Below, in pieces: positions 8,965 through 23,169 of a stretch of 43,702 bases of DNA (positions within the stretch are counted from its first letter, which is position 1; the number at the start of each line of letters is the position of its first letter). Source of the DNA: Pseudomonas sp. Ga0074129 (lineage in GTDB: Bacteria > Pseudomonadota > Gammaproteobacteria > Pseudomonadales > Pseudomonadaceae); contig LNDO01000080.1 in assembly GCA_001465025.1 (NCBI GenBank), positions 1-43,702 on the forward strand. Reading direction: 5' to 3'. Position numbers and translations under genes: made by a program. Under the pieces are notes generated by a model that saw nothing but the letters and a program-made list of their open reading frames with translations, was not told the DNA's origin and did no database searches.

Positions 8965-10659
8965 TCAGCTCGCCATCAGTGGGTCGCTAACGCCCAACAC
9001 ATAAACCGCAAACATCGCGATCAGGCCGGTAAACAGCACGTAGTACAGGGTAGGCCAAACGGTTTTGCGCAGGATGCTGCCTTCGCGACCCAGCAGGCCC
9101 ACGGTGGCCGATGCGGCGACCACGTTGTGGATTGCCACCATGTTGCCCGCAGCCGCACCAACGGCCTGCACCGCGACAATCAGCGCGCTGGAAATGCCCA
9201 GGCTGCTGGCCACGCCGAACTGGAACTGGCTGAACATCATGTTGCTCACCGTGTTGGAACCGGCAATAAACGCGCCCAGTGCACCAATGCTCGGGGCCAG
9301 GAGCGGGTAGATACCGCCCACGCTGTCAGCCACCCAGCGCGCCATCAGGATCGGCATGCTCGACAGTTCGGCGGCGTTAACCCCGGAGTTGATCAGGATG
9401 CGCACCATCGGCACGGTAAACAGCAGCACGAAGCCGGCGCTGAGCAATACACTGGACGACTCTTTCACCGCTGCGCCCAACTCGCGCAGTTTCATGCCAT
9501 GCAGGAAGAAAGTGGCGATGACCACGGTGACCAGAATCCCGCCCGGCAGATAGAGTGGATCGAAGCTGGCACCGATGCCGGTTTCGCCCAGCAGGTCGGG
9601 GAATTTCAATGCCACGCCCTTCAGCGCTGCACCGACTTCTGGGAATACCCGGCTGATCACCAGCAGCACACCCACCAGCACATAAGGCAGCCAGGCGCGC
9701 AGAGCGCTCATCGGTTTGGCTGTCAGGTCGTCGAGTTTCATCTCCACGCTGCCCAACCACTCGGCCGGCCATTGGTCGGCCGGGGCGAAATCCCAGGTGG
9801 TTTTCGGCAGCAGAAAGCCCATGCGCGCAGCGCTGGTGACAATTGCCAGGCCGATCAGGCCACCGCCCAGTGACGGGAACTCGGGGCCGAGGAATACACC
9901 GGTCAGCACGTAAGGCACGGTAAAGGCCAGTCCGGCGAAAATGGCAAACGGCAGCACTTCAAAGCCGGCTTTCCAGCTTTTTTCGGCACCGAAGAAGCGC
10001 GTCAGCATCAGCACCATAATCAGCGGCATCACAGTGCCGACGATGGCGTGAATGATCGCCACTTCACTGGTGATCAGTTGCAGGAACTGCGCCCAGGACG
10101 AGCCCTGTGCAACCAACTGAGCGCCGATGGTGGCGCTGTCCATGCCTGTGTTCAGGCCGACGATGATCGGTGTACCCACCGCGCCGAAGGACACCGGTGT
10201 GCTTTGCACCAACATGCCGAGCAACACAGCCGCCATGGCCGGGAAGCCGATGGCCACCAGCAACGGTGCCGCGATGGCAGCCGGTGTGCCGAAGCCCGAG
10301 GCGCCTTCGATAAAGCAGCCGAACAGCCAGGCGATGATGATTGCCTGAATGCGCCGATCCGGGCTGATGGTGGCAAAGCCGGCGCGAATCGCGGTGATGC
10401 CGCCGGAGTGTTTAAGGGTGTTGAGCAGCAGAATCGCGCCAAAGATGATCCACAACAAACCGAGGGTAATCAGCAACCCTTGCACGGTGGACGCCAGCAC
10501 GCGGTTGAAACTCATGTCCCAGGCAAACAAACCCACCGCAGCGGTGACCAGGTAAACCAGTGGCATGGCGTGTTTGGCCGGCCAGCGCAGACCAACCAGC
10601 AAAATGGCGGCCAGCAGAATCGGTGAGAAGGCCAGTAGAGCAAGAAGACCAGTCGACAT
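8965..10659 (-). CDS. lldP: L-lactate permease
   Basis: A 564-residue polytopic membrane protein of the LctP family with roughly a dozen hydrophobic segments from residue 4 onward. Family stretches include LFGCFIEGASGFGTPAAIAAPLL, PVSFGAVGTPI and FIAGSNTVSNMMF (read in parts). AAGGAGAGAG lies just before ATG at 10659. It imports lactate (and probably glycolate) by proton symport. It is first in the operon with lldD and dld, and its promoter region faces lldR across an LldR-type palindrome. Confidence 0.95.
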   Translation of the reverse strand: MSTGLLALLAFSPILLAAILLVGLRWPAKHAMPLVYLVTAAVGLFAWDMSFNRVLASTVQGLLITLGLLWIIFGAILLLNTLKHSGGITAIRAGFATISPDRRIQAIIIAWLFGCFIEGASGFGTPAAIAAPLLVAIGFPAMAAVLLGMLVQSTPVSFGAVGTPIIVGLNTGMDSATIGAQLVAQGSSWAQFLQLITSEVAIIHAIVGTVMPLIMVLMLTRFFGAEKSWKAGFEVLPFAIFAGLAFTVPYVLTGVFLGPEFPSLGGGLIGLAIVTSAARMGFLLPKTTWDFAPADQWPAEWLGSVEMKLDDLTAKPMSALRAWLPYVLVGVLLVISRVFPEVGAALKGVALKFPDLLGETGIGASFDPLYLPGGILVTVVIATFFLHGMKLRELGAAVKESSSVLLSAGFVLLFTVPMVRILINSGVNAAELSSMPILMARWVADSVGGIYPLLAPSIGALGAFIAGSNTVSNMMFSQFQFGVASSLGISSALIVAVQAVGAAAGNMVAIHNVVAASATVGLLGREGSILRKTVWPTLYYVLFTGLIAMFAVYVLGVSDPLMAS

Positions 10660-10797
10660 GGTGCTCTCTCCTTAGCGCTGCGCAATGCGCATGAGTGGGT
10701 GCAGGGAGGCATCGCGTGGCAATGCAGCGTCAGGTAAGTGCAAGAGAGCCGGCATGGGTAGACCTCGTGGGTTCTTGGAATTGTTTTTAGTGTGGTT

Positions 10798-10814
10798 AAT
10801 TGGTAATACCAATT
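10798..10814. promoter_or_regulatory. Predicted LldR operator
   Basis: AATTGGTAATACCAATT is palindromic except for its central base and has the TGGT-N3-ACCA core used by LldR-type FCD regulators. It lies 139 bases upstream of lldP ATG. LldR is known to repress lldPD and to be released by lactate. Confidence 0.8.
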
Positions 10815-10867
10815 TACAAGACTGCGCGGTCAGGGTAAAAGTGCGGCCTCTGACCTGTCAATTAGCT

Positions 10868-10891
10868 GCCTTACGACTTTGGTCGTAAGGC
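10868..10891. other. 10-bp inverted repeat upstream of lldR
   Basis: GCCTTACGAC (10868-10877), loop TTTG, GTCGTAAGGC (10882-10891): a perfect 10-bp stem with a tetraloop and no following T-run. It lies 92 bases before the lldR start. It may be a leader hairpin or a second protein-binding site. Confidence 0.5.
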
Positions 10892-10983
10892 GATGCCTTG
10901 CGGGGGTAAAGGCACGGCGATAGGCTTGCCGGCAGCGGGCCGCAAAGGCCCATGGCAGGTGGTCAAACCAGTGGGGTGTGGGT

Positions 10984-11760
10984 ATGGAAGTGGGATCGGT
11001 GCGTCAGCGCCGTTTGTCGGACGATATCGTCAGCCAGCTGGAAACCATGATTCTTGAAGGCACGCTCAAGGCTGGTGAACGTCTACCGGCTGAACGCGTT
11101 CTGGCTGAGCAGTTCGGCGTATCCCGGCCCTCACTGCGCGAGGCGATTCAAAAGCTGGCGGCCAAGGGCTTGCTGGTCAGCCGTCACGGCGGTGGCAACT
11201 ATGTGGCCGAAGCCCTTGGCTCGACCTTTAGCGACCCGCTGTTGCACTTGCTGGAAAGTAACCCCGAAGCTCAGCGTGACCTGCTTGAGTTTCGCCACAC
11301 GCTAGAAGGCTCCTGCGCCTTCTACGCCGCCCAGCGCGCCACCGAACTGGATCGCCAGCGCCTGACCGAGGCCTTTGCCGCGCTGCAGGATTGCTACAGC
11401 CGCAGCGGCAAGGTCACCCGCGCTGAAGAGGGAGCGGCCGATGCCAACTTCCATTTGGCGATTGCCGAAGCCAGCCATAACGCCGTGCTGCTGCACACCA
11501 TTCGCGGGCTGTTTGACCTGCTCAAGCGCAACGTGGTGACCAACATTGGCGGCATGTATGCCCAGCGTGATGAAACCCGCGACATGTTGATCGACCAACA
11601 CCGTGCGCTGTATCAGGCGATTATCGAAGGCCGCGCCGAGGACGCCCGCGCGCTGTCCAACCGGCATATCGATTACGTGCAGGAAGTGCTGGCCGACGTG
11701 CAGCAGCAGGCCCGTCGCGAAGAACGGGCACAGCGCCGGGGCCTCAACACACCGCGTTAG
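10984..11760 (+). CDS. lldR: Lactate-responsive GntR/FCD regulator LldR
   Basis: A 258-residue repressor. ATG 10984 (MEVGSVRQRRLSDDIV) is preferred to GTG 10978 because GGGG at 10973-10976 is well spaced and relatives start close to the RQRRLSD segment. The N-terminal winged helix (about 8-75) carries LPAERVLAEQFGVSRPSLREAIQKLAAKGLL. The C-terminal FCD domain (about 95-240) has the Asp/His ligands in DANFHLAIAEASHN and later His residues in DQHRALY and NRHIDYVQ. It is divergent from lldP with an LldR-type palindrome between them; lactate is the expected inducer. Confidence 0.93.
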   Translation: MEVGSVRQRRLSDDIVSQLETMILEGTLKAGERLPAERVLAEQFGVSRPSLREAIQKLAAKGLLVSRHGGGNYVAEALGSTFSDPLLHLLESNPEAQRDLLEFRHTLEGSCAFYAAQRATELDRQRLTEAFAALQDCYSRSGKVTRAEEGAADANFHLAIAEASHNAVLLHTIRGLFDLLKRNVVTNIGGMYAQRDETRDMLIDQHRALYQAIIEGRAEDARALSNRHIDYVQEVLADVQQQARREERAQRRGLNTPR

Positions 11761-11815: not shown

Positions 11816-13300
11816 CTAACGGACTGGGGGGCGGGTTTTCGGCAGACGCACCGCGACCTCAAGACCGCCCAGAGGTGAGTCATTCAGGCTGATGCTGCCC
11901 CGGTGCAACTCCACTACGCGGCGCACGATGGAGAGCCCAAGCCCGGCCCCTTGACCGGTACCCAAGCGGAAAAACCGCTCGAACAGTTTGGCCCGCTGCG
12001 CCTGTGGCACGCCGGGGCCGCTGTCTTGAATGCGCACGGTGAGGGCGTCAGGTTCGTCCTCCAGCAGCACCTGAATAGATCCGCCTGGCGGGGTGTATTG
12101 CACGGCGTTGCTGATGAGGTTTTGCAGCAAGGTGCCCAGGCTCGGGCCGTCGGCCAGCAAGTGGTAATCAGCGTGTTCGGCGGCGTGCAGGCTCAGCTCT
12201 TGTTCACGGTCGAGCGCCAGTGGAATCAGCTCGGCCAGCTCATTGCGGACAAAATCCAGCAGGTCCAGTTCGCGCATGGCCAGTTGCACCACATTCGGGT
12301 CCAGTCGAGCCAGGGTGAGCAACTGCGCCACCACCCGCGTGGCCCGTTCAACGCCGCCACCGAGTTGGCGCAGCGCTTCATTGCGGTCGTCAGGATCGGG
12401 GGCTTCCAAGGCGTTTTGCGCATGGATACGCAGCACCGCCAAGGGCGTACGCAGTTCATGGGCGGCATCGGCAATAAAGCGCTTTTCCTGATCCAGCAAC
12501 TGGTTGACCTGCATCAGCAAGCGATTGAGCGCGCTGCCCATCGGTTCCAATTCATGTGGCAACGGGCCAAACAGCAGCGGTGACAGGTTGTCGGGCGCAC
12601 GCGCCTTGATCGCTTCGGCCATGCGCTGCAAAGGCTGCAAACCCCAGCCCACCGCCAACCACAGGAGCAAGGCGAGTATCGGTAAGCCAATCAGCAGGGG
12701 TTGCAGGCTGCGCTGGGCAATTTTATCGGACAACTCGCCGCGCACATCCTCGCGCTCACCGACCAAAACCCAGTGGTGATCGAGGCTGTTGTGCAGCACA
12801 AATACGCGCCAGCGGTGCTGGTCAAGGGTCAGGGTGTGATAGCCGACCAGGTATTTGGCCAGGCGAGTGAGGCGTTCGCTCTGTGTCAGCCCGTTGTCGG
12901 GCAGGGTCAGGCCGAGCTGCGCGATCATTTCGCTGAGCAGGCCTTTGGGCGCACTGGCTGACTGGAACACCAGCTCGCCGTTGTCATTGAGCATCTGGAA
13001 CGCCAGCTTGCTTTCGTAATGATGCCCGAGCAGGCCATCGAGATCGCGATTGCTGTTTTTCAGCAACAATGCCTCGTCCAGGGCGGTTTGCAGGTCGCGG
13101 CGCGACTCGGCGGATAACTCATGCCGCGCTAGGCCCATCAGCACCCGTGAGGTTTGTGCCAGCTGGGCGTCGAATAACTCTTCCACTTCATGACTGGCGT
13201 CGCTGTAGATCTTGTGGCTGATCAGGCCCATGGCCAGGCTCAACAAGCTCAGCAGCAATACCAGCAAACGTGCCCGGATCGAGCACCACAACTTGGGCAT
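11816..13300 (-). CDS. Sensor histidine kinase, QseC/PmrB-like
   Basis: A 494-residue membrane kinase. ATG 13300 (MPKLWCSIRARLLVLLL) is chosen because it follows the regulator stop after one base. TM1 is at about residues 10-28, then a periplasmic sensor loop of about 160 residues, TM2 (about 203-222), a HAMP-like linker (GLQPLQRMAEAIKARAP), HisKA with His281 in DAAHELRTPLAVLR, and HATPase with NLISNAVQYTPPGG, DSGPGVP and GAGLGLSIV. It is the cognate partner of the regulator at 13302. The pair lies downstream of, and on the same strand as, the putative biosynthetic operon 14048-18317, so it could sense or control that product; this is inference. It is convergent with lldR. Confidence 0.88.
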   Translation of the reverse strand: MPKLWCSIRARLLVLLLSLLSLAMGLISHKIYSDASHEVEELFDAQLAQTSRVLMGLARHELSAESRRDLQTALDEALLLKNSNRDLDGLLGHHYESKLAFQMLNDNGELVFQSASAPKGLLSEMIAQLGLTLPDNGLTQSERLTRLAKYLVGYHTLTLDQHRWRVFVLHNSLDHHWVLVGEREDVRGELSDKIAQRSLQPLLIGLPILALLLWLAVGWGLQPLQRMAEAIKARAPDNLSPLLFGPLPHELEPMGSALNRLLMQVNQLLDQEKRFIADAAHELRTPLAVLRIHAQNALEAPDPDDRNEALRQLGGGVERATRVVAQLLTLARLDPNVVQLAMRELDLLDFVRNELAELIPLALDREQELSLHAAEHADYHLLADGPSLGTLLQNLISNAVQYTPPGGSIQVLLEDEPDALTVRIQDSGPGVPQAQRAKLFERFFRLGTGQGAGLGLSIVRRVVELHRGSISLNDSPLGGLEVAVRLPKTRPPVR

Positions 13301-13301
13301 G

Positions 13302-13958
13302 TTATTTGTCCACCAGATAGCCAACACCGCGCACGGTGCGTATCAGCTCGCTAAAGAATTTTTTGCGCAGGTGATGCACATGCACCTCCAGCGCGTTGCT
13401 CTCCAGTTCTTCGCCCCAGCCGTAGAGCGCTTGCTGCAGCTTGTCGCGGGTTAGCACCCGGCCAGGCTGGGCGAGCAGTTCGTGCAGCAGGAGAAATTCC
13501 TTGCGCGGCAGGTTCACCGGTTGGCCCTGATAGCTGACGGACTGGCTGACCGGATCAAGGGTGATGCCACGGTATTCCAACATCGGTTGCGGGCGATTGA
13601 AGCTGCGCCGCAGCAACGCCCGCAGGCGCGCCTTGAGTTCGGCCACATCGAAGGGTTTGACAAGGTAATCATCGGCCCCGGCATCCAGCCCGGCGATGCG
13701 GTCGCTGGTGGCATCGCGCGCGGTCAGTACCAGCACCGGCACCGGGTTGGCGGCGGCGCGCAGGTGTTTAAGCACTTGCAGGCCATCCATGCGCGGTAAA
13801 CCCAGGTCGAGAATCGCCAGCTCGAAGCTTTCCGTGCTCAAGGCGTGCAGGGCACTGCTGCCATCTTGCAGCCAATCGACGGTGTAGCCTTCTGGCTTGA
13901 GTGCGGTGCGAATGCCCTCGGCGAGGGCGATGTCATCTTCTACCAGCAAAATGCGCAT
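13302..13958 (-). CDS. OmpR-family response regulator, QseB/PmrA-like
   Basis: A 218-residue regulator with an N-terminal receiver (acidic pocket Asp8/Asp9, phosphoacceptor Asp51 in AILDLGLPRMDG, VKPFD lysine) and a C-terminal winged helix (about 125-215) containing LYGWGEELESNALEVHVHHLRKKF. The last motif is typical of the QseB/PmrA/TctD branch. Its stop is separated by one base from the kinase start, so the two are translationally linked. In P. aeruginosa pmrAB lies near the lactate locus as I recall, so orthology to PmrA is possible, but the sequence does not settle it. It lies 89 bases after the TPR gene, where its own promoter may be. Confidence 0.9.
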   Translation of the reverse strand: MRILLVEDDIALAEGIRTALKPEGYTVDWLQDGSSALHALSTESFELAILDLGLPRMDGLQVLKHLRAAANPVPVLVLTARDATSDRIAGLDAGADDYLVKPFDVAELKARLRALLRRSFNRPQPMLEYRGITLDPVSQSVSYQGQPVNLPRKEFLLLHELLAQPGRVLTRDKLQQALYGWGEELESNALEVHVHHLRKKFFSELIRTVRGVGYLVDK

Positions 13959-14047: not shown

Positions 14048-14698
14048 TTATTGACGTTGTGCGCTTATGCTCTTGAGCAGCGCGTTGATGTCCTGCTTGC
14101 GTCCTTCGTCGGCCAGTTGGCGGCCCGGGCGTGGGGGCGCTTGCAGGGCTTTTTCCAGTGCAGCGTTGGCTTCATCGAAGCGTTTGCTACGGGCCAGGTA
14201 ATCGCCATAGAAGTAGTTGGGGTCGATGCCGTCCGGGTTGATGCTCAGGGCTTTTTGCAGCAGGGCCTCGGCTTTTTCGTCATCGCCAAACCCCACCGGC
14301 CAGCCCGGTACTTGGTAGTACAGGCTGCCCAGGCTGGTATAGGCCGAGCCGGAGAGCGCCTGTGCATCCAGTGTTAATGCGTGCTCAAGGCTGGCCTTGG
14401 CTTCTTTGACCAGCCCCAGTGCCCCCAAGCCCCCTTTAGCCCCGGCGTAGGTGCTGAGGATGATGCCTTGCCAGATCTGCAGTTCGGCGGCGTCCGGTTC
14501 GGCCGCCACGGCTTTTTGTGCGTCCTCGCTGAGGCTGGCGAAGGCCTTTTCGCGTTGCTCCTTGGGCAGCTGGTAATTGATCTCGGCCCAGCGTGCTTGC
14601 AGGGTTTGTAGCTGGGTCTGACCTTGCTCGCTGAGGGCAAAGCTGGGCAGGCTGGTCAGGCAGAGCAGGGTGCAGGCGATGGTACGGATAAGCTTCAT
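14048..14698 (-). CDS. Periplasmic TPR-containing protein of the biosynthetic cluster
   Basis: A 216-residue protein with a Sec signal peptide (MKLIRTIACTLLCLTSLPSFA, cleavage near residue 22) and helical repeats resembling TPRs around residues 85-200 (AKASLEHALTLDAQA, AEALLQKALSINPDG, ANAALEKALQAPPR). The start is 11 bases after the dehydrogenase stop, so it is the last gene of the five-gene run. TPR proteins scaffold protein-protein contacts; a periplasmic scaffold for the cluster product or its export is a guess. I do not recognise a named ortholog. Confidence 0.75.
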   Translation of the reverse strand: MKLIRTIACTLLCLTSLPSFALSEQGQTQLQTLQARWAEINYQLPKEQREKAFASLSEDAQKAVAAEPDAAELQIWQGIILSTYAGAKGGLGALGLVKEAKASLEHALTLDAQALSGSAYTSLGSLYYQVPGWPVGFGDDEKAEALLQKALSINPDGIDPNYFYGDYLARSKRFDEANAALEKALQAPPRPGRQLADEGRKQDINALLKSISAQRQ

Positions 14699-14709
14699 GG
14701 GGTGTCCTC

Positions 14710-15501
14710 TCAGGCTTTGTTGCGCGCAAAGCGCAGGATGATTGGCAGTTGTTTGCGCAGGGCTTGATCAACCACACGTGGCAGCAGGCTGTTGAGCCGC
14801 ACGAAGAGTTGTTCTGGCCAGCCGAGGTAGCGCTCTTCGTCCTCGCGGCGCAGGGTGGCCAGCAGTTGTGCGGCGACGGTGTGCGGGTCGTCCATGCTGA
14901 CCTTGAGCTGGTCGTTCATGTTCACCACGGCGCTGCTGTTCATGCTGGTGCGGGTGGCGCGGGGGGCGAAGTAAATAACCTTCATGGGTGTGTCCGCCAA
15001 CTCGCGGCGCAGGGCTTCGGAGAAACCGCGCAGGGCAAATTTGCTGGCGCAATACGCGGTGAAACCGGGGTAGCCGATGGAGCCGAAGGTCGACCCGAGA
15101 TTGACCACCAGCGCCCGGCCCTGCTGACGCAGCAGCGGCAGCAGGCGATGGGTCAGTTGCAGGGTGGCGGTGACGTTGAGTTCAATCAGTTCGGCGATGG
15201 CGCTTTCTTCATGCTGCTCCAGCAAGCCGAAGTGATTGACCCCGGCGGCGTTGATCAGCGTATTGATGCCGCCAAAGCGCTGCGCCGCCGCCAACACGTC
15301 TTCACGTCCGCTGGTTTGACGAATATCGGCGGCTACGATGGCCACGTTGCCGCTGTGCGTCTGGGCCAGCGCTTGCAAAGCGGCGCTTTGACGGCCGACC
15401 AAGAGCAATTGCGCCCCTTCGGCGAGCAAGGCGCTGACCAGCGCTTGGCCAATCCCGCCACTGGCCCCGGTGATGACGGCGCGGCATTCAGAAATTTTCA
15501 T
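14710..15501 (-). CDS. Short-chain dehydrogenase/reductase
   Basis: A 263-residue classical SDR. The NAD(P)-binding TGASGGIG is at 11-18, NAAG at 85-88, and the catalytic triad is Ser137, Tyr150 and Lys154 (YCASK). The C-terminal part (after about residue 200) carries hydrophobic and basic stretches, LFVRLNSLLPRVVDQAL, reminiscent of SDRs that act on lipid substrates, but this is weak evidence. It lies 17 bases after the diiron oxidase gene and 11 bases before the TPR gene. It probably reduces or oxidises a keto or hydroxy group of the cluster's intermediate. Arg at position 36-37 (LLVGRQ) would fit NADPH preference. Confidence 0.88.
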   Translation of the reverse strand: MKISECRAVITGASGGIGQALVSALLAEGAQLLLVGRQSAALQALAQTHSGNVAIVAADIRQTSGREDVLAAAQRFGGINTLINAAGVNHFGLLEQHEESAIAELIELNVTATLQLTHRLLPLLRQQGRALVVNLGSTFGSIGYPGFTAYCASKFALRGFSEALRRELADTPMKVIYFAPRATRTSMNSSAVVNMNDQLKVSMDDPHTVAAQLLATLRREDEERYLGWPEQLFVRLNSLLPRVVDQALRKQLPIILRFARNKA

Positions 15502-15518
15502 AGGGTGTCCTCAGGTAC

Positions 15519-16172
15519 TCACGTGCTCAGGGGCAGGCTGCGGAACATATCGCCGTACAGGCGGTAGACCACCTTGGCGGTGTGCACCACGGCCGCTTTG
15601 TCATCGTCGTTGTCTAACTGGTTCATCAGTTTCTTGAAGAACTCGATGTGCTCCAGGTCAAGGCTGCCGTGGGAACTGAGGTAGCTGAAGGCCTTGTTCG
15701 GCAGTTGCAGCTTGTCCTGAATCACCCCCGCCACCTGGGTGGCGAGGGCGATGCTGGTGCCTTCCAGTACGTTGACCATGCCGAAGAAACTCACCGGGTT
15801 ATGCCGCGCGATGCGGTCATACACGTAGCTGACCATCAATTCGGTCGACAGGTGCGGCAGGCCGTTGCGCACGGCTTCTTTGTCGGCACCGCAGGCGGCG
15901 ATGTCGTTGAGTACCCATTCCTGGTGGCCCTTTTCTTCGTCGATGTATTCGGCAATTGCCTCGCGCAGCCACTCCAGTCGCTCCGGCAGGCGTGCGCCAC
16001 AAGCCATCAGCAGCGGCACGGTGTGTTTGACGTGGTGATAGGCCTCGGTGAGAAAGGCCACGTAGCTGTTCAGGCTGACGGTGCCGGCCATGGCCTGGGC
16101 AATGATCGGGGCGCCGAGCAGGTAGTTGCGTTCAGCGCTGGTTTGTTCGAGCAGGGATTCATAGAAGCTCAT
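15519..16172 (-). CDS. Haem-oxygenase-like diiron oxidase/oxygenase (HDO) family protein
   Basis: A 217-residue all-helical protein, usually labelled TenA-like or iron-containing redox enzyme. Candidate metal ligands follow the HDO pattern: Glu80-x2-His83 (EEKGH), Glu137 (LEGTS), His168, Asp172 and His175 (HGSLDLEH), plus Glu43/His46/His47 in EAYHHVKH. This matches the ligand order of HDOs such as UndA, which converts medium-chain fatty acids to terminal alkenes, and of HDOs cleaving amino-acid C-C bonds. Thiaminase-type cysteine chemistry is not evident. The start overlaps the ligase stop by one base (TGATG), so the two are coupled. Its substrate is unknown; the ligase upstream suggests an acid or acyl-derived one. 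Confidence 0.85.
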   Translation of the reverse strand: MSFYESLLEQTSAERNYLLGAPIIAQAMAGTVSLNSYVAFLTEAYHHVKHTVPLLMACGARLPERLEWLREAIAEYIDEEKGHQEWVLNDIAACGADKEAVRNGLPHLSTELMVSYVYDRIARHNPVSFFGMVNVLEGTSIALATQVAGVIQDKLQLPNKAFSYLSSHGSLDLEHIEFFKKLMNQLDNDDDKAAVVHTAKVVYRLYGDMFRSLPLST

Positions 16173-17644
16173 CAGGCATCTCCGTAGCAGGGTTCGGTCG
16201 TCATCACTTGTTCGATGGCGTGTTGGTAGTGGTTAAACAGGGCGGTGCGGCGCAGCCGGCCGTTGCTGGTGGCCAGCGTGTTGGCGCTGCTGAAGGGCTG
16301 TTCGGCGCGCAGCCAGTGGTGCACGCGGGCGTAGTCGGGCAGGGCTTGGTTGGCCGTCGCCACGGCTTCGGCCAATTGGCTGTCAGGGGTGTTCGGGAAG
16401 CGCGGCACCAGCACCGCCACGTTGCCCGGCAGGGCTTCGCCGTGCAGCCAGGCCTGGGCGATGGGCAGTTGCTGAACCAGTTCGGCCTCGACCCATTCCG
16501 GGTTGACGTTGCGGCCAAAGGCGGTGATGAACTGGTGCTTCTTGCGCCCGTGCAGCACCAGAAACGGGCCGTCGAAATGGCCCAGATCACCGGTGCCCAG
16601 CCATTCTTCTGCCGGGCTTGGCTCGCCCAGGTAACCGAGCAAACGCGGGCCTTTGACCAGCACTTCGCCGTCTGCCCCCAGGCTTACCTGCAGGTGCGGC
16701 AAAGGTTGGCCAACGCTGCCGATGCGGCGGTTTTCCGGGGTGTTCAGGCACACCACCGAAGCGCATTCAGAGAGGCCGTAACCCTCAAAGACGGGTAAGC
16801 CCAACGCCTCGGCACGTTGCAGCAATTGGCTGGCGACGCGGCCACCGCCGACGGCGATAAAACGCAGGCTGTTCGGCAGGGGCAAGCGACGTTCGGCGGC
16901 GCTGACCAGTGCCAGCAGCAACTGCGGCAGCAGGATCAGGCTGTTGGGCTGAGCCTGAGCCAGCGCGGCCAAAAAGCGCGGCAGGTCAAACTGGCTGGCA
17001 CCGAGCAGGCCGATCTGCGCCATCGGCATTAATTCAACCTGTGCACCGGCCAGCAGCGGGGCATAGACCCCGGCGATGTTCTCCAGCAGCGTGGCCAAGG
17101 GCAGCACGCACAGGTGACGTTCGACCGCGCAGCTGGCGCTGGCTTGCACCAGGCTCTGCGCTACGGCCAGTTGCGTGGCGCTGTCCAGGCACACTCCTTT
17201 GGGTTGCCCGGTGGTGCCCGAGGTGTAGGTGATCTTGCAGGTGCCGGCGGGCAGTTCGCTGACTTGCGCCCGTGGTCGTTGTTGAAGGCCAGCGCTGCTG
17301 GGGCTGAAACCCAGTGCGTCATACAGCGGGCTGGTCGGGCCGATCAGGCAGTCAATGCCAGCGCTGTCCAGCACGTGCGCTTGCTGGCTGCTGGAAAAGA
17401 AGCCGGGCAGCGGCACGCAGACCAGCCCGGCATGCAGCACAGCGAGGTCCCAGAGCACCCAGTCAATGCCGTTATCCAGCGCCAATGCGACGCGCTGTGC
17501 GCCGAGATCGAGCAGCTGCTTGCTGCGCTGGTCGACCTCTTGCAGCAGTTGGCTGTAGCTCAATTGGCGCTCGTTTTCACGCAACGCCGCGGCGTTGCCA
17601 AAGGCGCTCAGGCTGGCGAAAAAGCGATCAGCTGCAGGCCACAT
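16172..17644 (-). CDS. AMP-dependent acyl/aryl synthetase-like ligase
   Basis: A 490-residue ANL-superfamily enzyme. ATG 17644 (MWPAADRFFASL) is chosen; the frame extends upstream to 17791 but that part overlaps the preceding gene in an unlikely composition. The A3 P-loop TYTSGTTGQPKG is at 139-150, A5 is YGLSE, A7 is GTGDLG, and A8 is GRKKHQFITAFGRNVNPEWVE (read in parts). The A10 box reads NGRLRR (461-466), with Arg463 where the catalytic Lys of most adenylate-forming enzymes sits. The family activates a carboxylate as acyl-AMP and then acyl-CoA or another acyl ester. It overlaps the upstream gene by 17 bases and the downstream oxidase by one base. Confidence 0.88.
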   Translation of the reverse strand: MWPAADRFFASLSAFGNAAALRENERQLSYSQLLQEVDQRSKQLLDLGAQRVALALDNGIDWVLWDLAVLHAGLVCVPLPGFFSSSQQAHVLDSAGIDCLIGPTSPLYDALGFSPSSAGLQQRPRAQVSELPAGTCKITYTSGTTGQPKGVCLDSATQLAVAQSLVQASASCAVERHLCVLPLATLLENIAGVYAPLLAGAQVELMPMAQIGLLGASQFDLPRFLAALAQAQPNSLILLPQLLLALVSAAERRLPLPNSLRFIAVGGGRVASQLLQRAEALGLPVFEGYGLSECASVVCLNTPENRRIGSVGQPLPHLQVSLGADGEVLVKGPRLLGYLGEPSPAEEWLGTGDLGHFDGPFLVLHGRKKHQFITAFGRNVNPEWVEAELVQQLPIAQAWLHGEALPGNVAVLVPRFPNTPDSQLAEAVATANQALPDYARVHHWLRAEQPFSSANTLATSNGRLRRTALFNHYQHAIEQVMTTEPCYGDA

Positions 17645-18317
17645 GGGGCATGTCCTCCAGAGCATAAAAAGCCTGATGGGCGAGGCGCGGGTAAGCACCC
17701 AGTTGCAGCAGGCGCTGGTGCCCGGCATAAATGTCGCCGGCCATGACCTGTGGCCGGTTGTCGTAGTAAGTGCCCCAGTCGGCTTGTTCATCGCCCAGGC
17801 ATTCGGGGTTGGCCGCGCCCAGCGCCACAGGCGTCAGGCCCAAGCGCTGAAAGCTGTTGAGCAAAGCCAAGGTGCCGGTAAAGCAGACCCAGCGATAACC
17901 CAGCGCCACCAGCAGATCCGTCAGCGCCACAATCAGCAGGCGCGCGGCACCCGGGCTGGCGGCGGCCAGGTTGCCAACCTCGACCAACTGCGCGCGTTGT
18001 GCGGTTTGCGCGCCCTGTTTGGCGGTGATCACCTGTTCCACCGGCTGTTGTAGGTAGCGCTCCAGAAACAACGGCGCACCGGCCGCGCTGCGCAAACCCA
18101 CGGCCCCCAGCAACTGGCCGCTGCCATCTTCCAGGCTCAATAGGCTGGGCATGAAGTGGCGGATATGCGCCCGGTGATGGACGGCGAAGCGCTCGCTGAT
18201 AAAGGCTTCAATAGCAGCGCGACGCGGGCTTTGCCGATTGGCCAGATACAGGTTGAACGGCTGTTCGCGACCGATCTGTGCAAGCGCAGTGTCTGAATAC
18301 ACCCAAGGCAGCTCCAT
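17628..18317 (-). CDS. Thermostable-hemolysin family (GNAT-like) protein
   Basis: A 229-residue protein resembling the family named after Vibrio thermostable direct-like delta hemolysin (T_hemolysin). ATG 18317 (MELPWVYSD) follows GAGG eight bases upstream and is preferred to 18341. The region VEVGNLAAASPGAARLLIVALTDLL then YRWVCFTGTLALLNSFQRLGL (about 113-160) has the order of a GNAT or autoinducer-synthase acetyltransferase fold: a strand before the acyl-CoA loop, then a helix. There is no signal peptide, so secretion as a toxin is doubtful. As the first gene of the operon it more plausibly transfers an acyl group made by the neighbouring ligase. The fold link is recalled family knowledge, not computed. 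Confidence 0.8.
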   Translation of the reverse strand: MELPWVYSDTALAQIGREQPFNLYLANRQSPRRAAIEAFISERFAVHHRAHIRHFMPSLLSLEDGSGQLLGAVGLRSAAGAPLFLERYLQQPVEQVITAKQGAQTAQRAQLVEVGNLAAASPGAARLLIVALTDLLVALGYRWVCFTGTLALLNSFQRLGLTPVALGAANPECLGDEQADWGTYYDNRPQVMAGDIYAGHQRLLQLGAYPRLAHQAFYALEDMPHVACS

Positions 18318-18528
18318 GGTAGGAACCTCATTTGTGAACATGGGTGTGAGTGTCTGCCTGCAGGCTTAACCGCAAATTAAGTCGCAAAAAAATCCGTATC
18401 GCCGTCGTCGTTGGCATTTCATCGCTTGCGCTGCAACCGCAACAGCCCCTAGCCTGCTGGGGCCTGCCTGCAACCTGACTGCGGGTGGGATTTGTCCTGA
18501 CCTTAAGCGCCTACGCTCGGAGATCGTT
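18318..18528. promoter_or_regulatory. Divergent control region for the biosynthetic operon and the 18529 gene
   Basis: A 211-base gap between divergent starts, which must hold the operon promoter on the minus strand. It contains an AT-rich patch (18375-18400) unlike the flanking genes and the palindrome GCCTGCAGGC near 18356. I found no convincing -35/-10 pair. Confidence 0.4.
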
Positions 18529-18942: not shown

Positions 18943-19160
18943 GCCAGCCCAGCGCGGCTGTAGCCGGCGTTGAACACCGCGAAGCCCAACGGGTCGTGAC
19001 AGGTCTTGTTGGGCTTCGTCGCTTTGCTCCTCAACCCAACCTACGTGCTGGAATAAACCGGTTCATCGCGGCTATGCGCCGGTAGGTTGGCGTTGAGCGC
19101 AGCGAAGCCCAACGGGTTGTGACAGGTCTCGTTGCGCTTCGTCGCTTTGCTCCTCAATCG
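18931..19160. repeat. Two tandem imperfect copies of a roughly 110-bp element
   Basis: Copy 1 (18931-19037) and copy 2 (19045-19160) share GTGCTGGA(G/A)TAA, GCGAAGCCCAACGGGT, GTGACAGGTCT and TTCGTCGCTTTGCTCCTCAA. Each copy can fold on itself because GAAGCCCAAC pairs with GTTGGGCTTC. This is the common Pseudomonas GTTGGGCTTCGTCGC-type intergenic repeat. Copy 1 begins inside the last codons of the 18529 gene. Confidence 0.75.
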
Positions 19161-19274
19161 TATCTACCACTGACCGTCGATCAACCCATCTGCGTTGTAG
19201 TACCGGGCTATTACCCGCGACCGCTGTATCGGCAGCAGACTGTGGCCTTCTCAGTTCATTCAAGGAGCAGGCAC

Positions 19275-19856
19275 ATGGCGGCGAAGAAGATTCTCATGCT
19301 GGTCGGCGACTACGTCGAAGACTACGAAGTGATGGTGCCGTTTCAGGCATTGCTGATGGTAGGGCATCAGGTGCACGCCGTGTGCCCGGAAAAAACCGCC
19401 GGGCAGACGGTGCGCACCGCCATCCATGATTTTGAAGGCGAGCAAACCTACAGCGAAAAGCCGGGGCATAACTTTGCCTTGAATTTCGATTTTGCTCAGG
19501 TAAAGGCCGACGATTACGACGCGCTGCTCATTCCCGGTGGCCGCGCCCCGGAGTACTTGCGCCTGAATGCGCAGGTGCTGGCGCTGGTGCAGGCGTTCGA
19601 TCACGCCGGTAAACCGATTGCCGCGGTCTGTCATGGCGCGCAATTGCTCGCGGCAGCCGGCGTGCTGAAGGGGCGTGAGTGCAGCGCTTATCCTGCCTGC
19701 GGCCCGGAAGTGACGCTGGCGGGCGGGCGCTATATCGACATCGCCGTGGATCAGGCGCATGTTCAAGGTAATTTGGTGACGGCCCCAGCCTGGCCGGCGC
19801 ATCCCAACTGGCTGGCGGCGTTTCTCGGCCTGCTGGGTACGCAGATCACGCTGTAA
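19275..19856 (+). CDS. DJ-1/PfpI family protein
   Basis: A 193-residue protein of the DJ-1/PfpI superfamily. ATG 19275 follows AAGGAG (19262-19267). The nucleophile elbow [10 protein letters not shown] places the reactive Cys at residue 119, next to His120, and [13 protein letters not shown] supplies the conserved Gly-Gly segment and a Glu nearby. Members act as glyoxalase III/deglycase-like enzymes, amidases or stress chaperones; the sequence does not decide which. It starts 114 bases after a tandem repeat and is followed by a REP element, so it is probably transcribed alone. Confidence 0.9.
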
Positions 19857-20286: not shown

Positions 20287-20421
20287 CCTGGATCAGTGTC
20301 GCGTCCGAGCGACACGGCTCTAATAGCGCGGTCAATCTGTTCGCTGCGTCGGTTTGCCTCAGGCGGCCTGCGCGGTGGCGGTTCCGGCTATTATCGCGCC
20401 CCCTTTGCTCGGGTATTTCCT

Positions 20422-20790
20422 GTGTTGCCTAAACACTCCCACCGCTTCGGTAACTGGCTTGGCCTTGCGGCCATGTGCCTGTTGCTGCTCGGGCCTTTGC
20501 TGGGGCAGGGGTTGGCGTTGGGGCAGTCGTCCACGGACTGGCAGTGGCTCGACGAGCTGGCGTGCGGCGACCATAAAGCGTCCGACATGCCGCAGGCGCA
20601 TGCCGATGAGTGGGCCAAATGCGGCTATTGCACACTCCTGTTGTCATCGCCGGCATTATTCAACACCTCGCCATTTGCGCCGCCGCGCGTGGTGGCAGCC
20701 CCCGCCGTTTCTCCCTTCGCTGATCCCGCGTTACCGCCGGGCGGTGTCTTCCCCGGTGCGCAATCGCGCGCACCGCCTCGTCAGGCCTGA
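20422..20790 (+). CDS. DUF2946-like protein upstream of the copper receptor
   Basis: A 122-residue protein if GTG 20422 is the start (the frame is open from 20296, and TTG 20425 is also possible; no strong ribosome binding site is seen). It has one hydrophobic segment (FGNWLGLAAMCLLLLGPLLGQGL, about residues 8-30), then HADEWAKCGYCTLLL with a CxxC pair, and a Pro/Ala-rich tail. Short membrane proteins of this type (DUF2946) commonly precede TonB-dependent copper receptor genes. The CxxC and the His in DHKASDMPQAHADEW could bind copper. It ends 114 bases before the receptor gene. Confidence 0.65.
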   Translation: MLPKHSHRFGNWLGLAAMCLLLLGPLLGQGLALGQSSTDWQWLDELACGDHKASDMPQAHADEWAKCGYCTLLLSSPALFNTSPFAPPRVVAAPAVSPFADPALPPGGVFPGAQSRAPPRQA

Positions 20791-20904
20791 CACACGTTTT
20801 TCAGCGTGTGTTTCACCTTGCTTTTTGATTCAGCGTCACCGCGCCTATGCCTATGCAAGGTGCGGGCGCTGCTGTGAATGCATTGCCTGACAGGATTTTT
20901 ACCT

Positions 20905-23169
20905 ATGTCTGCACCTCGTTACGCCCGTTCTGTTGCCCTTATCAGTTTGATGAGCCCGCTGGCCCTGGCAGTTGCCGCTGAAGTCAGCCCGAAAGCCCAG
21001 GCCGAATACCTGCAATTGCCCGATACCCTTGTGCAAGGCCAGTCCCCGGTTGAAGCCACCGAGCAGCCCAGCGCCGAGCGCATCAGCAGCCTGATTCCGG
21101 CAACCTCTGATACCGCTTCACTGCTGCGCGATGTGCCGGGCGTGAGCCTTAACGGCGCGGGTGGTTTTTCCAGCCTGCCGGCCATTCGCGGCCTGAGTAA
21201 TGACCGTTTGCGCATCAAGGTCGATGGCATGGACCTGATCGCCTCCTGCCCCAACCATATGAACCCGGCCTTGTCTTACGTGGCCCCCAGCAACCTGGGC
21301 AAGTTGCAGGTGTTGGCCGGGATTACTCCGGTCAGCTTGGGCGGTGACAGCATTGGCGGCACCATCGTGGCGCAGAGTCAGGAGCCGGTTTTCGCTGAGG
21401 CCGGAGCCGAGAGCCTTAATCAAGGTGAGGTGGGTGGTTTCTGGCGCAGTAATAACGACGCACGCGGCGGCAATGCCTCGGTGATGCACGCCAGCGAGGT
21501 GTTCCACATCCGTTACAGCGGCAGTTACAGCAAGGCCAACAACTACATGGCCGGGTCTGACTTTAAAGACAGCACCGCCACGGGGCGGGTGGGAGAGGGC
21601 GCGGCGCTGGATGAAGTGGCGTCCAGTGCCTTCGAGCGCCGTGACCATGAGTTGGGCATGGCCTACAAGCTGGGTGAGGACGTGCTGGCGCTGACCTTGG
21701 GCTATCAGCAGGTGCCGCAAGAACTGTTCCCCAACCAGCGCATGGACATGACTGACAACAGTCAGCAACGCATCAACCTGCGCCATACCGCGCAGTTCGA
21801 GTGGGGCCGTCTTGAAACGCAGCTGTATCACGAACAGGTCGAGCACAAGATGGACTTCGGTCCGGACAAGCGCTTCTGGTATGGCAGTGCTTCCGGGGCG
21901 GGCAGTGCCTGCAGCCCGATCAGCGCCACCTGCGCCGCCGGTATGCCGATGGAGAGTGAAGGCAAAACCCTGGGCCTTAACCTCAAGGCCACGGTCGAGT
22001 TGACCGAACATGATCTGCTGCGCATCGGCAGCGAATACCAGCGCTACCGTTTGAATGACTACTGGCCGGCCTCCGGTGGCGGCATGTGGCCCGGCACCTT
22101 TGAGAACATCAACGACGGTGAGCGTGACCGCATCGGCGTCTTTGGCGAGTGGGAGCGGCAGATCAACCCCGCCTGGCTGACCTTGCTCGGTCTGCGCTAT
22201 GAGCACGTCGCCACCGATGCCGGCGAGGTAAAAGGCTACGCCGATACCAACGGCATGGGCATGATGCTGAACAATCAGCGCCGTGATTCGGCCGCCTTCA
22301 ATGCCCGTGATCGCAGCCAGCGTGACCACAACATCGACCTGACCGCCCTGGCCCGTTACAACCATGACGCCCATCTCGACCTTGAGTTCGGTGTGGCGCG
22401 CAAGGTGCGCTCGCCCAATCTGTATGAGCGTTACACCTGGTCCACCTGGGCCATGGCTGCGACCATGAATAACTTTGTCGGCGACGGTAACGGTTATGTC
22501 GGCGATGTCGACCTCAAGCCGGAAGCCGCGCACATCGCTTCGGTCACACTGGACTGGCACAGCGAAGATCGCCGTCATGAGCTTAAGGTCACGCCGTTCT
22601 ACACCTACATCAACGACTTCATCGATGCGCAGGCCCTGCCAGGCCAAACGGTCGTTGCTGACCAGTTCAACGTGCTGCAGTACAGCAACCAGTCCGCGCG
22701 CATTTATGGCGTCGATGTGGCCGGGCGTATGCCGCTGCTGCGCAATGACTTGGGGCAGTGGGGCGTGCAGGCGGTGGTGAATTACAGCAACGGCAAAAAC
22801 CGTGACACGGGCGATGCGCTCTACAACATCATGCCGCTCAACACCACGCTGTCCCTGACGCAACAACAGGGTGGCTGGAGCAACAGCCTGGAAATGGTCA
22901 GCGTTCAAGCCAAAAACGATGGTTCGACGGTGCGCAATGAAATCCAGACGGCGGGCTACAGCCTGTTCAACCTGCGGTTGAGCCACAGCTGGGACAACCT
23001 GCGGGTGGATGTGGGCGTGGAGAACCTGGCCGACAAGTTCTATTACCTGCCAACCGGCGGCGCTTACACCGCGCAGGGCCGCACCATGTCGATGAATGGC
23101 ATTCCTTGGGGCACGGCGGTGCCGGGCATGGGCCGCTCGTTCTACACCGGCTTTAGCCTGCGCTTTTAA
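20905..23169 (+). CDS. oprC: TonB-dependent copper receptor, OprC/NosA type
   Basis: A 754-residue outer-membrane receptor. ATG 20905 starts a signal peptide (MSAPRYARSVALISLMSPLALAVAA read in parts, cleaved near residue 26). The plug domain spans about 50-170 with LLRDVPGVSLNGAGG and RIKVDGMD, and the C-terminus ends in Phe (GFSLRF) as in beta barrels. OprC binds copper through CxxxM and HxM pairs; here Cys115-x3-Met119 (SCPNHM) and His314-x-Met316 (EHKM) are present, which supports copper rather than iron as substrate. It follows a DUF2946-like gene. Confidence 0.93.
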   Translation: MSAPRYARSVALISLMSPLALAVAAEVSPKAQAEYLQLPDTLVQGQSPVEATEQPSAERISSLIPATSDTASLLRDVPGVSLNGAGGFSSLPAIRGLSNDRLRIKVDGMDLIASCPNHMNPALSYVAPSNLGKLQVLAGITPVSLGGDSIGGTIVAQSQEPVFAEAGAESLNQGEVGGFWRSNNDARGGNASVMHASEVFHIRYSGSYSKANNYMAGSDFKDSTATGRVGEGAALDEVASSAFERRDHELGMAYKLGEDVLALTLGYQQVPQELFPNQRMDMTDNSQQRINLRHTAQFEWGRLETQLYHEQVEHKMDFGPDKRFWYGSASGAGSACSPISATCAAGMPMESEGKTLGLNLKATVELTEHDLLRIGSEYQRYRLNDYWPASGGGMWPGTFENINDGERDRIGVFGEWERQINPAWLTLLGLRYEHVATDAGEVKGYADTNGMGMMLNNQRRDSAAFNARDRSQRDHNIDLTALARYNHDAHLDLEFGVARKVRSPNLYERYTWSTWAMAATMNNFVGDGNGYVGDVDLKPEAAHIASVTLDWHSEDRRHELKVTPFYTYINDFIDAQALPGQTVVADQFNVLQYSNQSARIYGVDVAGRMPLLRNDLGQWGVQAVVNYSNGKNRDTGDALYNIMPLNTTLSLTQQQGGWSNSLEMVSVQAKNDGSTVRNEIQTAGYSLFNLRLSHSWDNLRVDVGVENLADKFYYLPTGGAYTAQGRTMSMNGIPWGTAVPGMGRSFYTGFSLRF

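Follow-up and report, generated by a model that had tools for sequence, protein, structure and literature searches.

What is a gene family named for hemolysis doing beside a ligase, an oxidase and a reductase? The question is posed by contig LNDO01000080.1 of Pseudomonas sp. Ga0074129 (assembly GCA_001465025.1, a genome of 4.0 Mb), whose whole stretch of 43,702 nucleotides was analysed and is called the window below. From 18317 down to 14048, all on the minus strand, it carries genes for a T_hemolysin protein (17628..18317; PF12261, E = 1.3e-63), an AMP-forming acyl ligase (16172..17644; PF00501, 7.1e-47), a heme-oxygenase-like diiron oxidase (HDO; 15519..16172; PF14518, 1.4e-28), a short-chain dehydrogenase/reductase (SDR; 14710..15501; PF00106, 1.4e-43) and a tetratricopeptide repeat (TPR) protein (14048..14698; TPR models such as PF13181, 9.1e-10). 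The first-pass annotation of this DNA had the five genes overlapping by 17 and 1 bases and separated by gaps of 17 and 11, and the list of open reading frames (ORFs), read together with the sequence, confirms this to the base. The list itself, made mechanically, has other starts for the hemolysin (18341) and the ligase (17791); 18317 and 17644 are preferred because both fit the gene overlaps. The operon is larger than these five genes. Beginning 89 bases past the TPR gene, on the same strand, are an OmpR-family response regulator, PmrA/QseB-like (13302..13958; PF00072 and PF00486), and a QseC-like membrane histidine kinase (11816..13327; HisKA, HATPase_c and HAMP), the start of the latter being uncertain, with an alternative ATG possible near 13300. 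On balance we think it probable that the whole is a self-regulated biosynthetic operon, an oxygen-dependent route to an acyl amide or a similar acylated molecule, under its own two-component control.

The first line of evidence is the conservation of the cassette. Public genomes scanned with the HDO yielded 369 relatives, of which the best 80 were kept as named loci; many of these loci are closely related, and the presence of HDO in them is guaranteed by design. The neighbourhood survey which the first-pass annotation had proposed found all seven genes on one strand and in identical order in 71 of the 80, which places the order far from chance. Six of the nine exceptions end at a contig edge (L046, L073, L085, L091, L107 and L114), while the TPR match is absent in L098 and L113 and the regulator pair in L115. 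The 80 loci span Thauera, Aromatoleum, Rhodoferax, Hydrogenophaga and Quisquiliibacterium as well as Pseudomonas and Stutzerimonas, the nearest HDO relatives among them being from Pseudomonas (e.g., P. guineae at 97% and P. peli at 95% identity).

Since the HDO bait fixes the presence of HDO, T_hemolysin was also used as bait in three genome samples. With the window genome counted, it is present in 21 of 57 genomes of relatives (15 of 36 in the same genus), 38 of 369 in the class sample and 78 of 398 in the phylum sample. Surroundings were taken for 20 of the 21 other matches in the relatives and 36 of the 37 others in the class, where one stretch without a usable T_hemolysin hit was dropped to leave 35; for the phylum, 18 of the 78 genomes supplied 20 stretches, picked for variety. 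All five genes are found in 17/20, 27/35 and 15/20 of these stretches, respectively, and the ligase stands near T_hemolysin in 20/20, 34/35 and 18/20. The regulator pair is nearby in 18/20, 28/35 and 1/20. The two-component system had earlier been described as following the five genes; its regulatory role is supported, and "following" has to be amended, because in most class-sample loci (28/35) its genes are part of the cassette. Eleven of the phylum stretches come from small genomes of a single family (f226) that lies outside the class; nine of these stretches retain the five genes but have no regulator pair close by. The remaining two (L239 and L241, from G452 and G476) hold a lone second T_hemolysin without ligase or HDO, and both genomes also carry the full gene set. 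One 1.1-Mb genome, 98% complete (G095, L182), retains all five genes, with weaker matches to the regulator and the kinase; this retention suggests that the role of the cassette is hard to lose.

Far from co-occurring rarely, T_hemolysin and an HDO of the cassette kind (counted at E <= 1e-20) are found together in 34 of the 369 class-sample genomes, out of 38 with the former and 37 with the latter. Among the four genomes with T_hemolysin alone, G246 (L185) has a TauD-type oxygenase in the place of HDO, G321 (L168) has other cassette genes but no HDO, G189 (L180) shows no nearby ligase, SDR, TPR or HDO match, and the match in G269 is weak and partial. Three genomes (G075, G149 and G177) match the HDO without having T_hemolysin, in each case more weakly than the cassette HDOs do. 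Over 68 loci, the pairwise distances calculated for the five proteins correlate (Spearman 0.28 to 0.70, with 0 of 500 permutations as high), so the five genes have largely travelled together, with a contribution from the relatedness of the genomes.

After gene conservation, control by its own two-component system is the best-supported point about this operon. Upstream of T_hemolysin in the window lies a candidate regulatory site, the PmrA-like box CTTAAT-N5-GTTAAG (TTAA-N7-TTAA; 18365..18381, minus strand), recognised by reading the sequence and aligning the loci; spelled out, 18381-18365 reads CTTAATTTGCGGTTAAG, and the box stands 63 bases ahead of the start. Among the 132 loci with 300 upstream bases available, the TTAA-N7-TTAA direct repeat is found in 98, compared with 30 of 6600 shuffled sequences; by group, the named loci have it in 70 of 77 cases and the others in 28 of 55. 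The distance from box to start is 60-66 bases in 74 of the 98, a spacing with which the start at 18317 agrees and by which it is further favoured. The 92 distinct sites, when aligned, read C-TTAA-G/T followed by TTAA-G, a CTTAAG-N5-CTTAAG-like consensus, and by eye a -10-like stretch follows about 11 bases downstream of the box. A set of 28 loci without the exact box (27 of the 34 box-less ones plus L244) was scored against this consensus. Eleven same-genus loci within L022-L034 have, at -63 to -66, a variant with TTCAG in either half or in both; ten of them match 10 of the 12 consensus bases and one matches 9, scores that shuffled sequences reach in 6 and 45 of 1000 cases. The other 17 mostly score 6 to 9 at best (L040 reaches 11), so some cassette loci show no such box.

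The box also goes with the regulator. In 79 diverse loci it is present in 26 of 39 with a close regulator (at least 190 bits) and 7 of 40 without, or in 30 of 51 with any nearby regulator (at least 85 bits) compared with 3 of 28; the p values of 1e-5 and 3e-5 are optimistic, as the loci are related. None of the 20 stretches in the phylum group, which mostly lacks the regulator, has the box. PmrA and BqsR, the latter a ferrous-iron regulator, have boxes with a TTAAG-type direct repeat of 11-base period, which the cassette box resembles. The cassette box is a likely target of the response regulator that the operon itself encodes. It is worth pointing out that neither regulatory protein reaches the curated NCBIfam cut-offs of PmrAB or QseBC: the regulator matches PmrA best, at 236.9 bits (cut-off 330), then QseB at 222 (cut-off 345), and the kinase matches QseC best, at 250.7 bits (cut-off 475). 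A search for a wider regulon in the same genome gave 13 box matches at 10 places compared with 7 in the control, which is nothing notable.

The earlier view of the genes as a single operon is thus upheld by four kinds of evidence: the conserved neighbourhood, the co-occurrence in genomes, the conserved promoter box and the published co-induction of apparent orthologues. The last comes from P. alcaligenes AVO110, where A9179_RS08440-08460 is an apparent orthologous cluster by product names, numbering and order (PMC8304167). When the strain was moved to exudate of Rosellinia necatrix, the ligase rose 389-, the HDO 373-, the SDR 318-, the TPR protein 107- and the regulator 38-fold, as given in a part of the table without entries for T_hemolysin and the kinase (PMC8304167).

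What, then, is the protein that gave the family its name? The first-pass annotation called it GNAT-like, and the structural evidence agrees: the AlphaFold2 model (pLDDT 90.2, pTM 0.88) predicts a GNAT fold with high confidence, and its top structure matches, by a modest margin, are acyl-homoserine-lactone (AHL) synthases and FeeM, an N-acyl amino acid synthase. The LuxI-type synthases TofI, LasI, BjaI and RpaI come closest, with MesI and EsaI lower, so that the model has the AHL-synthase type of GNAT fold which is a feature of the LuxI family, and we describe the protein as a predicted LuxI/FeeM-like GNAT-fold acyltransferase. The Pfam scan, which covered eight proteins of the window with a reporting limit of E <= 0.001, reported PF12261 as the sole match of T_hemolysin, and neither PF00765 (the LuxI family) nor PF21926 (the FeeM family) was matched. 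Profile comparison, a weak test given a LuxI alignment of just 2 rows and a LuxI-FeeM control that itself reached only 21% probability, found no significant link to LuxI or FeeM; phmmer and hmmsearch against the sequences of solved structures gave no credible match. The residues for the S-adenosylmethionine and acyl sites of LasI we take to be D44, D47, R70, E101 and R104. In an alignment which is itself not significant, R76 (127/142 rows) and E113 (139/142) of T_hemolysin could match R70 and E101, and N116 (132/142) stands at R104; the position that is presumably the catalytic arginine of LuxI is thus asparagine here. There is also no LuxR-type gene, the usual neighbour of LuxI, among the eight window proteins, the cassette having an OmpR-type regulator and a histidine kinase instead. 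Membership in the LuxI family was rejected. The gene set of the fee cluster from environmental DNA presumably differs from that of the cassette as well. A further parallel is BPSL1375, a COG3176/OlsB-type protein of another Pfam family, which is likewise a GNAT-type acyltransferase carrying the hemolysin name and has a VEVG motif in common with T_hemolysin; if these motifs align, its R135, which is required for hemolysis, corresponds to asparagine in T_hemolysin (PMC4657338).

All four PF12261, PF00501, PF14518 and PF00106 matches exceed the Pfam cut-offs. The ligase has the PF00501 match and the P-loop of the ANL adenylate-forming ligases (T141, S142, G143, T145, P148 and G150 in 141/141 rows, K149 in 137/141), but not their A10 adenylation lysine, which is arginine in 132 of 141 rows and lysine in 5. 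The oxidase, matching PF14518 at 100.4 bits (cut-off 28.9), has the three-histidine/three-carboxylate set E80, H83, E137, H168, D172 and H175 in 133 or 134 of 134 rows (a row that misses has a gap there), and is by its sequence, on which this placement rests, a heme-oxygenase-like diiron oxidase. Its nearest solved structure in sequence and profile searches is 3DDE, followed by CADD and MboA, the nearest characterised HDOs with solved structures, which are distant in sequence (profile E of 4.8e-6 and 1.5e-3) and presumably sit in other gene contexts. No chain of UndA, a 1-alkene-forming HDO, is among the 22 solved sequences matched by the HDO profile at E <= 1, an absence which does not exclude a relation. 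The SDR matches NF006565 at 388.5 bits (cut-off 238) and keeps S137, Y150 and K154 in 138/138 rows. For the TPR protein, three of the seven matched Pfam models exceed their cut-offs, and an N terminus that looks by eye like a signal peptide makes it probably periplasmic.

Nature has also joined and exchanged some of these parts. The ligase and the HDO form a single ORF in six loci: L038 (5507-7753), L040 (5487-7553) and L158 (8684-10816) on the minus strand, and L247 (8822-10837), L249 (8778-10865) and L315 (9561-11720) on the plus strand; the last of these six, from Pseudoalteromonas donghaensis, has 719 residues and matches both PF00501 and PF14518. Because they are fused, the two enzymes probably act consecutively. 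In other loci a TauD-type oxygenase replaces the HDO beside T_hemolysin and the ligase, as in L039 (with an SDR) and L041 of the relatives, L185 of the class and L253 of the phylum, on a plasmid of Acinetobacter haemolyticus (L195) and on three Streptomyces plasmids (L187, L192 and L193). The Streptomyces copies of the T_hemolysin-ligase pair have genes for ketosynthases and dehydratases around them, an environment suggestive of natural-product synthesis. A TauD-type operon of Serratia contains a transporter gene (PMC4046660), and a small exported molecule is the reading that fits this setting.

Taken together, the parts suggest a route. The ligase would activate a carboxylic acid to an acyl-AMP, and T_hemolysin, given its predicted fold, may transfer the acyl group to an amine to yield an acyl amide. 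The diiron HDO, with its metal ligands and natural fusions, would carry out an oxygen-dependent change on a substrate handled jointly with the ligase, and the SDR would then reduce or oxidise the product. The TPR protein, probably exported, might, as a guess, act in the envelope to aid the product or the way it is sensed, and the adjacent kinase and regulator, conserved together with the box, would turn the operon on through it. We infer this chemistry from folds, fusions and the exchange of parts. The first-pass annotation had proposed a biosynthetic pathway for a small lipid or acyl-derived molecule; the enzyme set supports the biosynthesis, and the "lipid" stays as conjectural as before. 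For the product, a signal, a membrane lipid and an antibiotic are all conceivable.

Of these, the membrane lipid deserves the closest attention. PmrAB/BqsRS-type systems respond to iron, redox or envelope stress, and the cassette, with its PmrA-like box and PmrA/QseB-like regulator, could make a membrane amino lipid under such stress, one that would remain in the envelope instead of acting as a signal. The probably exported TPR protein would suit this, as would the nine of eleven small-genome-family stretches keeping the five genes without two-component genes. A cytochrome b561-like gene stands close to the cassette in 29 of 167 loci, query loci included (e.g., L099, 13425-13931, directly after the kinase), 25 of the 29 being Pseudomonas, Stutzerimonas or same-genus; a cupredoxin is found in 10 of the 167 (e.g., L036, 13639-13893), an iron-transporter-like gene in 9 and a VIT-type iron transporter in 3. 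These neighbours point to an envelope or redox setting, but the iron genes are confined to a minority of loci. RExxE, which we take to be the iron motif of the BqsS kinase, is present in only 3 of 115 kinase rows (ExxE, in 109 of 115, is too common to be informative). The transporter of the Serratia operon likewise sits poorly with a product that stays in the envelope (PMC4046660). We regard the membrane amino lipid as a serious possibility, though not the probable one. Another reading is an unrecognised autoinduction circuit resembling quorum sensing, in which T_hemolysin, together with its ligase and oxygen-dependent tailoring enzymes, would make a new class of acyl signal, the QseC-like kinase would sense it and the regulator would feed back on the synthase promoter; we consider it unlikely.

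The first-pass annotation did not recognise the proposed pathway. Its "hemolysin" now has the LuxI/FeeM fold as its nearest likeness, and apparent orthologous clusters prove to be already in print under other readings. V. parahaemolyticus has one at VP1729-VP1735 (PMC10469919), with VP1729 a hemolysin, VP1731 an iron-containing redox enzyme and VP1735 a QseC-type kinase in a numbering that fits the cassette; the three were predicted to interact, as partners of a kinase. In Pseudoalteromonas, PCAR9_p0005-p0014 is conserved in 24 genomes and was labelled as potentially involved in virulence (PMC6262041). The P. alcaligenes cluster was interpreted as beta-oxidation (PMC8304167). The passages on these three clusters contain no test of the chemistry, and literature searches, with subscription papers mostly outside their coverage, found no characterised pathway with this gene set.

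The beta-oxidation reading, an operon for consuming environmental fatty acids, draws on the presence of both a ligase and an SDR and on fadD of the P. alcaligenes cluster, said to have earlier proved indispensable to growth and survival in exudate of the fungus (PMC8304167); the earlier screen names fadD (PMC6344628). It was rejected as the main explanation, because the acyl-CoA dehydrogenase, hydratase and thiolase families at the core of beta-oxidation are absent among the eight scanned proteins. Nor, to our knowledge, does beta-oxidation involve a diiron oxidase or an AHL-synthase-like acyltransferase, and the T_hemolysin-ligase pair within ketosynthase-bearing Streptomyces clusters also speaks against it; we judge it very unlikely.

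Least likely of all is a genuine pore-forming or lytic protein which the other genes would serve by modification or export, for which speak the Pfam name of PF12261, the report that the V. cholerae protein is hemolytic in both lysate and supernatant (PMC4046660), the V. alginolyticus thermostable hemolysin cited as toxic to zebrafish (PMC6262041) and the other-family GNAT-type protein that rendered E. coli clones hemolytic and was taken by its authors as a heat-labile hemolysin itself (PMC4657338), but which was rejected as the main explanation given the GNAT fold predicted with high confidence and the tight coupling of T_hemolysin to ligase, HDO or TauD, and SDR across many lineages. Substituting two conserved N-acyltransferase arginines abolished the hemolysis in that study, a result that fits an enzyme (PMC4657338). 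By analogy with this GNAT-type family, the old hemolysin name may come from lysis by a product; in the proposed biosynthetic operon, an amphiphilic product would account for the hemolysis that named the family.

A gene set common to many proteobacteria and formerly read as toxin or fat breakdown thus resembles a pathway that builds an acylated small molecule. If this is true, a family known just as hemolysin becomes an acyltransferase family, and the virulence interpretation of these genes in Vibrio and Pseudoalteromonas needs review; if the autoinduction circuit were true, the "thermostable hemolysins" would be a family of signal synthases. Because T_hemolysin is so widespread in the class and phylum samples, its product could be a metabolite that is common yet has so far escaped notice. 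Fusion of the ligase with the HDO, and the exchange of HDO for TauD, give an entry point to what may be a new diiron reaction, and a reporter built on the box could serve to find the inducing condition.

The surroundings of the operon in the window hold a few further genes, named by eye. An intracellular-protease-like ORF at 19119-19856 lies upstream of a pair on the plus strand at 20296-23169, which consists of a short ORF followed by a TonB-receptor-like ORF of 763 residues. On the other side, adjoining the kinase at 8965-11760, are a permease-like ORF of 564 residues on the minus strand and a divergent GntR-like regulator on the plus strand, each of which was matched by tblastn in 10 of the searched loci.

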